Origin: Bacteroidales bacterium
GTDB taxonomy: Bacteria; Bacteroidota; Bacteroidia; Bacteroidales; UBA932
Direction of reading: 5' to 3'
Assembly: GCA_013335275.1 (NCBI GenBank)
Contig: JAAXVX010000016.1
Coordinates: forward strand, 1-11,530
DNA: 11,530 nucleotides
How positions within the stretch are numbered: position 1 is the stretch's first letter; each line of letters opens with the position of its first letter. This document shows, piece after piece, positions 3,157-5,781 of the stretch. A program made the translations under genes and the position numbers. The notes under the pieces were generated by a model, which worked only from the letters and a program-made list of their open reading frames with translations, ran no database searches and was not told where the DNA came from.

Positions 3157-3552
3157 CTATTCTTTTTCCTTGCGGGAGAGCTTTTCGGAAATCAATCTTT
3201 CTGCAAAAATAAGCAGCACTACATTTAGTCCAATAATCAACCAAGTAAGAGAGAAGCTATTAGAAAACATAGATTTTATCTTGCCAGTGAAATTTATACT
3301 GTCTGCGAACAGAAATTTCAGACTGCTAATTTCTAGTCCAAAATATTTATAATTTAAATAATAGAGAACTGCAGACATAATAACAGCAATAATTACGGCA
3401 AATGAGATTTGATGAAAAAGCTCATTGCTTTCTTTCTTTTTAATGAACCTTTCCTCTATTTTTTTCTGAATTTTTACTTCAAAATTGAATGGAACCGATT
3501 CGTCGGCCAATCCGGCAAAAAGTTCTTTTAAGTTTTTGTCATGCTCATCCAT
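3157..3552 (-). CDS. Small two-helix membrane protein, putative anti-sigma factor
   Basis: I do not recognise a named family. The 131-residue protein has a charged cytoplasmic-looking N-terminus (1-48, with LKELFAGL and repeated KI-x-KIEERF heptad-like helices), a hydrophobic segment at about 49-66, a polar middle of about 35 residues, a second hydrophobic segment at about 102-117 and a strongly charged tail. Position is the main clue: its start codon lies inside the 3' end of the ECF sigma gene (8-base overlap), the standard place for a membrane anti-sigma factor. The short amphipathic N-terminal region is the part expected to hold the sigma factor. No zinc-binding HxxxCxxC (ZAS) motif is present, so it is not a classical ZAS anti-sigma factor. 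A perfect GGAGG precedes the start, suggesting that its output relative to sigma is set translationally. Confidence 0.72.
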   Translation of the reverse strand: MDEHDKNLKELFAGLADESVPFNFEVKIQKKIEERFIKKKESNELFHQISFAVIIAVIMSAVLYYLNYKYFGLEISSLKFLFADSINFTGKIKSMFSNSFSLTWLIIGLNVVLLIFAERLISEKLSRKEKE

Positions 3553-4114
3553 AGCACACCTCCATTTTATCTCCCATTAACAAATTTAATCTTTTTTTTA
3601 TCCTGTGCAGCTTCACTTTTACATTTGACTCGCTCATTCCCGTTATCTCTGCAATATCTTTTATACTCTTTTCGTGATTATAAAAGGAGATTATCAGAAA
3701 TCTGTCCGATACATCCAACTCTCCGAGCATCTGATTTAAAATTTTATATTGCCTCTCTCTGTCCAGATAATTTTCCTGCTCCTTTAGCGAATTGTTATCA
3801 GGGATATTGCCGGTTTTTTCGATAGGTATATGTTCTCTTTTCTTAAGCCGGGTCTTTGAAACTGACATATTGTATGCAATACGGAACAACCAGGTTGAAA
3901 AAGAACAATCTCCCCGGAATGACTTTATTGAAAAGTATGCTTTTACGAAAACATCCTGAGCAACCTCCTCGGCATCCTCCCTGTTGGAAACTACGCCGCG
4001 AACAACCGACAATATCTTTGGCGAATGTGTTTCTATAAGAGTATTGAACAGGTTAAGCTCACCTGCTTTTATTCTTTCAATTAATATGAGCTCCTCTTCT
4101 CTTTTCATTTGCAT
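3545..4114 (-). CDS. ECF-type RNA polymerase sigma factor (sigma-70 family)
   Basis: The 189-residue protein has the two-domain layout of extracytoplasmic-function sigma factors. Sigma region 2 spans about 8-92, with DAEEVAQDVFVKAY (47-60) and FSTWLFRIAYNMSVSKTR (72-89). A linker of about 30 residues follows. Sigma region 4 (about 122-178) has the helix-turn-helix IKDIAEITGMSESNVKVKLHRIKKRL for -35 recognition. There is no extra C-terminal domain. It would direct RNA polymerase to a small regulon, probably in response to an envelope signal relayed by the membrane protein encoded next. I prefer the ATG at 4114 (or 4108) to the in-frame TTG at 4126, because that TTG lies upstream of the likely -10 element CGTC (4120-4123). 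If the promoter is right, the transcript starts almost at the ATG, giving a leaderless or nearly leaderless message. The last 8 bases overlap the next gene. Confidence 0.93.
   Translation of the reverse strand: MQMKREEELILIERIKAGELNLFNTLIETHSPKILSVVRGVVSNREDAEEVAQDVFVKAYFSIKSFRGDCSFSTWLFRIAYNMSVSKTRLKKREHIPIEKTGNIPDNNSLKEQENYLDRERQYKILNQMLGELDVSDRFLIISFYNHEKSIKDIAEITGMSESNVKVKLHRIKKRLNLLMGDKMEVCYG
3559..3563 (-). promoter_or_regulatory. Strong Shine-Dalgarno for the putative anti-sigma gene
   Basis: On the - strand GGAGG lies six bases before the ATG at 3552, inside the last codons of the sigma gene. Most starts in this window have no such site, as expected for Bacteroidota, so this perfect match stands out. 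It supports the chosen start and suggests re-initiation or coupled translation of the anti-sigma gene after the sigma gene. Confidence 0.6.
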
Positions 4115-4119
4115 TTTTA

Positions 4120-4145
4120 GACGCAAAGGTGCCTGTGAAGTTACA
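4120..4145 (-). promoter_or_regulatory. ECF-type promoter of the sigma gene: TGTAAC-N16-CGTC
   Basis: Read on the - strand, TGTAAC (4145-4140) is followed after 16 bases by CGTC (4123-4120) and then an A-rich run, directly before the sigma ATG at 4114. This is the form of promoters used by SigW/SigX/SigM-like ECF sigma factors (TGtAAC or TGaAAC, 16-17 bases, CGTA/CGTC). An identical element pair with identical spacing faces the other way at 4168-4193, so autoregulation of the sigma operon is likely. The start of transcription would fall around 4111-4114. Confidence 0.7.
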
Positions 4146-4167
4146 ACCTATTTTTAATTTTTTCTAC

Positions 4168-4193
4168 TGTAACCTTTTTCCTGCTCTCTCGTC
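4168..4193 (+). promoter_or_regulatory. ECF-type promoter of the DUF6249-like gene: TGTAAC-N16-CGTC
   Basis: TGTAAC (4168-4173), 16 bases, then CGTC (4190-4193) and AAAA lie 33 bases before the ATG at 4226. The elements and spacing match those of the divergent sigma promoter exactly, and the two -35 elements are 22 bases apart. I see no TAnnTTTG housekeeping element before this gene, so it may depend wholly on the neighbouring ECF sigma factor. Confidence 0.7.
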
Positions 4194-4225
4194 AAAAGTG
4201 CAAAACAATTTAAAATATCAGTATT

Positions 4226-4707: not shown

Positions 4708-5781
4708 CTACTTATTATCAACTAAAAGGATTCCGCTTCCTTTTGTCCCGTTTTTAAAAAGCATTGTGTGATTCTTTCTTTCGCGTTTCTTCCAGTCACC
4801 CTTATGATATGCATAACTAACAATCATAGGAACAACGGTAGTTGCTTCTGCATATACCATCTGTTCGTGAGCGGTATTGACTTTTCCCCATGAATTTGCC
4901 TCTTTGAGTGTAGAAGAAGAGCATGCGCCGTCGCGTACATCGGCAACTGTTATCTGAACGGCATACTGGTGCATCGGTACATCAAATCCCAGACACTCTG
5001 CGCAAACAACAGTGTCCTGAGCAAAGTTCTTAGGTACTCCGCCACCTACCATAAACAGCCCGCTTGTTTTGGCAGAAAGTTTAACTTCTGTAAGTTCACG
5101 GAAATCGGCTACTGAGTCAATTGAAAGATATGGTTTCCCGGCTTTCAGTTTTTCTACCTGATGTATTACAAGGCCAAAACCGGCACTGCTGTCGCTGAAT
5201 GCAGGGCAGAAGATAGGAATATTGAGCTCGTAGGCGGTTTGAATCAAAGAGTTCTTTTTCTTTGAATTTTTGCTTAGCCATTTTCCTATTTCGTAAATGA
5301 ATTCTCTTGAAGAGTAAGGTCTTGGTTCGAGAGAGTCAGCAATAAGCTTTATTGTTGAGTCACAAGACTGAAGCTCTTCTTCATCAATAAATGTATCGTA
5401 AATCCTGTCTATATAATTGTCTCTCAGGTGTGTATCGTCAATAAATTGTGTTCCCCTGTAGTGTTTGTATCCTAATGCTTCAAAAAAGTCCATGTCAATA
5501 ATTGACGCACCTGTGGAAACAATAGCATCAATCATATTGAAACGGAGCATATCCACATAAACCTGCATACAACCGCCTGCAGATGTGCTGCCGGCAAGTA
5601 TGAGCCAGTTGGTTGATTCTTTGTCGTTAATCATAAGCTGGAGAATATCTGCTGCCGAAGCTGTATCTCTTGATGAAAACGACATGTCACGCATTGAATC
5701 TATAAGAAGCGTTGAGTCAATTTTTGTGACATCAATGTGCTTTATTGTCTCCCTAAGGAGATCCTTCTTTGTTGGTTTCAT
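4708..5781 (-). CDS. Deoxyhypusine-synthase-family protein (likely polyamine enzyme)
   Basis: The 357-residue protein belongs to the deoxyhypusine synthase family, which uses NAD to transfer an aminobutyl group from spermidine to an acceptor lysine or amine. Visible motifs are the N-terminal LAGSTSAGG (62-70), STGASIIDMDFF (89-100), the NAD-site strand FCPAFSDSSAGFGLV (191-205), GGGVPKN (246-252) and EANSWGKV (294-301), in which Lys300 corresponds to the covalent-intermediate lysine of the eukaryotic enzyme. Bacteria have no eIF5A, and several bacterial homologues have been linked to homospermidine or related polyamine synthesis. The acceptor here cannot be read from sequence. No arginine decarboxylase or agmatinase gene lies beside it in this window. 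It is divergent from lysA, has a good TATCTTTG promoter, and ends at a strong terminator, so it is probably a single-gene unit. Confidence 0.9.
   Translation of the reverse strand: MKPTKKDLLRETIKHIDVTKIDSTLLIDSMRDMSFSSRDTASAADILQLMINDKESTNWLILAGSTSAGGCMQVYVDMLRFNMIDAIVSTGASIIDMDFFEALGYKHYRGTQFIDDTHLRDNYIDRIYDTFIDEEELQSCDSTIKLIADSLEPRPYSSREFIYEIGKWLSKNSKKKNSLIQTAYELNIPIFCPAFSDSSAGFGLVIHQVEKLKAGKPYLSIDSVADFRELTEVKLSAKTSGLFMVGGGVPKNFAQDTVVCAECLGFDVPMHQYAVQITVADVRDGACSSSTLKEANSWGKVNTAHEQMVYAEATTVVPMIVSYAYHKGDWKKRERKNHTMLFKNGTKGSGILLVDNK

Follow-up and report, generated by a model that had tools for sequence, protein, structure and literature searches.

A divergent promoter pair probably read by a Bacteroidales ECF sigma factor, with a DUF6249-like membrane protein gene as its predicted target

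Introduction

In Bacillus subtilis, SigW, SigX and SigM are encoded in autoregulated ECF sigma/anti-sigma operons, the promoters of which are of the TGWAAC-N16/17-CGWM kind. A comparable set of features is present in the window, i.e., the whole stretch of 11,530 nt analyzed here, belonging to the genome of a Bacteroidales bacterium (GCA_013335275.1, contig JAAXVX010000016.1): an ECF sigma factor gene that is followed by a gene for a membrane protein and preceded by its own conserved promoter. Unlike the three Bacillus systems, the system of the window has a tiny apparent regulon in its genus and a predicted divergent target gene, encoding a DUF6249-like protein, and no more than about 11 nt separate its -10 element from the start codon of the sigma gene. 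There is also a likeness to the PspC phage-shock responses, associated with membrane stress, in that the same element precedes PspC genes in a part of the Bacteroidales; the locus of the window differs from these in having no PspC gene.

An earlier note, made from the sequence of the window, had described two back-to-back promoters with the same signature and had read them as the recognition sequence of the neighboring sigma factor, linking the DUF6249-like protein to its regulon. Here, this reading was examined by comparison with relatives within the genus, the order, the class and the phylum.

Genes and promoter elements of the window

The features of the locus are listed in Table 1. The transcription start regions are predicted by the rule given in the earlier note, namely, 5-9 bases 3' of CGTC.

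Table 1. Genes, promoter elements and predicted transcription start regions of the locus
Feature	Position	Strand	Remarks
Gene for 131-aa protein with two hydrophobic segments	3157..3552	-	overlaps the end of the sigma gene; proposed anti-sigma factor (putative)
ECF sigma factor gene	3545..4108	-	187 aa plus stop; alternative in-frame ATG at 4114-4112; Pfam and NCBIfam domains
Predicted transcription start region, sigma operon	4111..4115	-	by arithmetic, 5-9 bases after CGTC
-10 CGTC, sigma operon promoter	4120..4123	-	11 nt before ATG at 4108; invariant in 18/18 aligned genus regions
-35 TGTAAC, sigma operon promoter	4140..4145	-	pattern; invariant in 18/18 aligned genus regions
-35 TGTAAC, divergent promoter	4168..4173	+	pattern; invariant in 18/18 aligned genus regions
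-10 CGTC, divergent promoter	4190..4193	+	pattern; invariant in 18/18 aligned genus regions
Predicted transcription start region, divergent gene	4198..4202	+	by arithmetic, 5-9 bases after CGTC
Gene for DUF6249-like small membrane protein, 135 aa	4226..4633	+	PF19762, 26.9 of 33 bits

The start of the sigma gene is placed at the ATG at 4108-4106 (187 aa), to which the relatives align. The protein contains the Pfam domains Sigma70_r2 (51.7 bits, cut-off 24) and Sigma70_r4_2 (42.4 bits, cut-off 25.7) and is assigned to the ECF sigma factors by the NCBIfam model sigma70-ECF (100.2 bits, cut-off 42.9). The likeness to SigW/SigX mentioned in the earlier note is a loose one: among proteins of solved structure, the closest in sequence is B. 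subtilis SigW (5.1e-17), but the scores against the NCBIfam equivalog models of SigW (NF007223, 87 of 209 bits) and SigX (NF007222, 71.8 of 194 bits) are far below their cut-offs.

For the 131-aa protein encoded behind the sigma factor, no match was found in Pfam and NCBIfam; its structure model has a low pTM (0.35) and no PDB match at E up to 0.001. In 76 of the 80 loci compared, the best out of 552 confirmed relatives, a small reading frame is present directly downstream of the sigma gene, and a simple scan detected two hydrophobic segments in 71 of these 76 frames. Judging by position and hydrophobicity, the product is proposed as a putative anti-sigma factor.

The protein encoded by the divergent gene scores below the Pfam gathering score for DUF6249 (PF19762), and is therefore named DUF6249-like. 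PF19762 is nevertheless matched by all 39 aligned members, that of the window among them, with E values of 0.01 or less; relatives reach 4e-20. The structure model of the protein has a pTM of 0.48, and no PDB match was found for it at E up to 0.001. Further along the window, at 4708-5781 on the minus strand, lies a deoxyhypusine-synthase-like gene, the product of which passes the NCBIfam cut-off for 1,9-bis(guanidino)-5-aza-nonane synthase (571.3 vs. 500 bits).

A pattern search of the whole window for TGTAAC-N15..17-CGTC detected two copies, at 4120-4145 (-) and 4168-4193 (+), and no third one, while a shuffle control gave a mean of 0.04 expected matches and two matches in 0 of 200 shuffles. 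The description in the earlier note is thus accurate: the signature is identical, with N16 in both copies, on the minus strand before the ECF sigma gene and on the plus strand before the DUF6249-like gene, and TGTAAC-N16-CGTC occurs nowhere else in the window; the CGTC is followed by W-AAA in both copies (TAAA on the minus and AAAA on the plus strand), and the -35 elements stand back to back with 22 bases between them.

Conservation within the genus

The genus set comprised 25 genomes, including the one containing the window, and the sigma gene, called at E up to 1e-25, was found in 21 of them. Both elements are present in all 21, in 18 genomes by the extended motif TGTAACY-N15-CGTCWAA and in three (G005, G009 and G017) by reading of the locus. 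The four genomes without the sigma gene (G002, G003, G004 and G019) contain neither the extended motif nor a match to the DUF6249-like protein. Every site of the extended motif in the genus is located at this locus, and the reversed pattern gave four matches in the 25 genomes. For 18 of the 21 loci, the intergenic regions, picked by the protein N-termini without use of the motif, were aligned over 151 columns, of which 32 are invariant: all 20 motif columns vs. 12 of the 131 others. Most of these 12 belong to the DUF6249-like start codon or adjoin the elements. A genome scan and an alignment of orthologous loci had been suggested in the earlier note as checks; in the genus the extended motif and the sigma gene are present or absent together, and at orthologous loci, both here and across the phylum, the elements are kept at fixed spacing.

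The bare pattern with N15-17 is not enriched in the assembly containing the window (1.92 Mb at 82.57% completeness), which has four matches vs. 22 for the reversed pattern, so that chance can be excluded only by comparison with relatives. Over the genus, the sites of the bare pattern sum up to 83 in sigma-positive genomes (21 genomes, 3.95 per genome) and to eight in sigma-negative ones (four genomes, 2.0 per genome). The excess equals the promoter pair, the pattern being at background level elsewhere; accordingly, a large regulon in the genus was rejected, and the regulon there looks like these two promoters. A 628-aa reading frame of the opposite strand covers the own-genome site on C377 (N15), which was regarded as a chance match.

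A third own-genome match is located 11 nt before a gene of a different ECF sigma factor (L003:1501-2029, contig C290). The same arrangement was found in eight more genomes of the genus among 20 chosen regions, and all nine sites read TGTAACA...TTCGTC. The element of this second ECF type is TGTAACA-N15-CGTC; in seven of the nine loci (L003, L139-L145 and L152), 11 nt separate it from the first start codon. The core of the motif is therefore common to at least two ECF types and may not be specific to the sigma factor of the window, which is the chief caveat regarding exclusivity. In L003, the second ECF gene is followed by a gene whose product has a hydrophobic stretch and by another small gene.

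Conservation and co-variation across the phylum

A total of 552 relatives were confirmed, and in the best 80 of them the region from 330 bases before the aligned sigma start to 60 bases after it was searched, with 390-base tiles as a control. The loose element TGTAAC-N15..19-GTC was found upstream of the sigma gene in 72 of the 80 loci and its strict form in 52, while eight loci lack the loose element. The reversed pattern was found in none of the 80 in the same span, and the 2970 control tiles contained 15 loose and seven strict matches. A second sample comprised 23 loci, taken from 22 further order-level genomes; the upstream element is present in 19 of the 22 orientable loci.

Of 81 loci, the window included, 60 contain both elements. 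The spacers of the two promoters are equal in 58 of these 60 (N16 in 22 and N17 in 36) and differ in two, and the class of the first -10 base (CGTC in both promoters or in neither) agrees in 55 and disagrees in five, both counts being uncorrected for relatedness. The matching changes of spacer and -10 element point to a single sigma factor that would read both promoters. The base following TGTAAC at this type of locus is C or T in 72 of 73 upstream and in all 49 divergent elements.

The length of the linker was considered as the cause of the difference between N16 and N17 and was rejected, since the linker lengths of both groups are centered at 50 residues and differ only by a slight shift. 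At residue S85 of region 2.4 of the query (S84 if the ATG at 4108 is taken as the start), N17 loci mostly contain S or D where the -10 is CGTC and T where it is another sequence; as relatedness is uncontrolled in this comparison, this residue is a lead only, a candidate for setting the -10 sequence.

In five genomes of cultured N17 species of the genera Kordia, Maribacter and Marinifilum, TGTAAC-N17-CGTC with C as the base following TGTAAC occurs two, three, three, two and four times. This locus accounts for two sites in each genome; the remaining four comprise two located within reading frames and two preceding other genes. A class-wide search for TGTAACC-N15-CGTCAAA matched 13 of 296 genomes, and in the 12 genomes other than the own one, the site precedes a DUF6249-like gene in five and does not in seven.

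The divergent gene and promoter distances

A divergent frame is present in 67 of the 81 loci, the window included, and in 57 of them an element is found on that side; not all 67 frames are DUF6249-like. For the DUF6249-like divergent genes, including that of the window, an element is located within 140 nt before the script-picked start in 49 of 52. Among the best 80 of 552 relatives, 19 loose matches are located at distances above 480 bases from the start of the sigma gene, nine of them before DUF6249-like genes. The element is kept by six relocated DUF6249-like genes (L018, L021, L023, L026, L040 and L043) and by three located upstream of the sigma gene on the same strand (L053, L055 and L067). 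As shown by this comparison, the candidate promoter element stays with the DUF6249-like gene despite changes in gene order.

The distance from GTC to the sigma start codon has a median of 11 nt and is 8-14 nt in 56 of 71 loci. The longest distances, 111-240 nt, belong to six Marinifilum loci (L028, L030, L033, L034, L038 and L047), in which the upstream element is kept. On the divergent side, the median is 42 nt (49 genes), and the sigma side is the shorter one in 41 of 48 paired loci. In the window, the -10 is 5 nt from the ATG at 4114 and 11 nt from the ATG at 4108. If transcription starts 5-9 bases after CGTC, the leader of the sigma mRNA would be about 2-6 nt and that of the divergent mRNA about 23-27 nt; given the short distance from the -10 to the start codon, the sigma mRNA is predicted to be nearly leaderless. 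In Bacteroidota, Shine-Dalgarno pairing plays a minor part, and near-leaderless mRNAs would agree with this.

Interpretation of the promoter pair

Very probably, both elements are recognized as promoters by the product of the ECF sigma gene at 3545-4108, which would control its own sigma/anti-sigma operon and a divergent membrane protein gene as a target. Conservation, presence/absence and co-variation all support the proposal of the earlier note that the pair represents the recognition sequence of this sigma factor and links the DUF6249-like protein to its regulon.

The pair could also be read as an operator of a dimeric transcription factor instead of two -35 elements, since GTTACA...TGTAAC is an inverted repeat, the halves of which are only three bases apart in some relatives. 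This gap, however, is not fixed: it takes 40 different values in 60 loci, the shortest being 3 and the longest 335 bases. The distance to CGTC/GTC, in contrast, is constant on each side (N16 or N17), and lone copies of the element precede relocated DUF6249-like genes and PspC genes; an operator was therefore rejected as very improbable. With a gap as small as three bases, both promoters could hardly be occupied at once in some species. Somewhat less improbable, but still very unlikely, is that the elements are general ECF promoters, read by one or several other ECF factors, the neighboring sigma factor not being the main reader. The second ECF type of the genus, with a similar element before its own gene, would agree with this, as would genome G003, which contains the second ECF gene and its element though the sigma gene of the window type is missing. 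Against it, the extended motif is missing from all four genus genomes without the window-type sigma gene, and the second-type elements examined all start with TGTAACA, while C or T follows TGTAAC at this locus. Chance is a negligible explanation: outside this locus, the bare pattern does occur about two times in a genome of the genus, but conservation, co-variation and presence/absence contradict it.

For the preferred reading, two promoters of the neighboring sigma factor, the following mechanism may be suggested. The membrane protein encoded at 3157-3552 would hold the sigma factor inactive at the membrane until a disturbance of the envelope or membrane frees it. The polymerase with the freed sigma factor would then transcribe its own operon, producing both sigma factor and brake in a positive feedback, and would also transcribe the gene of the DUF6249-like membrane protein. 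A closed circuit of two promoters, in which the sigma factor in this genus serves only its own near-leaderless operon and the DUF6249-like protein, the latter being a part of the switch (a sensor or second brake) and not an ordinary target, is conceivable, though rather doubtful.

The results provide an ECF group of Bacteroidota with a defined candidate recognition sequence, for which presence/absence and co-variation serve as internal controls, and assign a probable regulator to an uncharacterized family of membrane proteins, the DUF6249-like proteins. A connection with PspC is suggested for some Bacteroidales, and the sigma mRNAs are predicted to be near-leaderless. The same pair is present in the culturable relatives Maribacter and Kordia.

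Elements at other loci

Among the 30 PspC loci returned for the Bacteroidales, an element is located 17-34 nt before the PspC gene in eight. These loci (L176, L178, L179, L183, L186, L187, L199 and L201) come from genomes of different families and may represent a membrane-stress regulon. A relative of the sigma factor (E up to 1e-22) was found in seven of the eight genomes with the element before PspC, G379 being the one without, vs. seven of the 22 others (Fisher p 0.012). The regulon seems to extend to PspC in some other Bacteroidales. No element was found at the PspC locus of the own genome (L193). The phylum-wide draw of PspC loci gave the element at 0 of 30, and a link to PspC outside the Bacteroidales was rejected.

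In two genomes of the genus (L154 and L155), TGTAACA and CGTC were found 19 nt before the same long gene, the product of which, judged by eye, is similar to TonB-dependent receptors or to carboxypeptidase-regulatory-like proteins.
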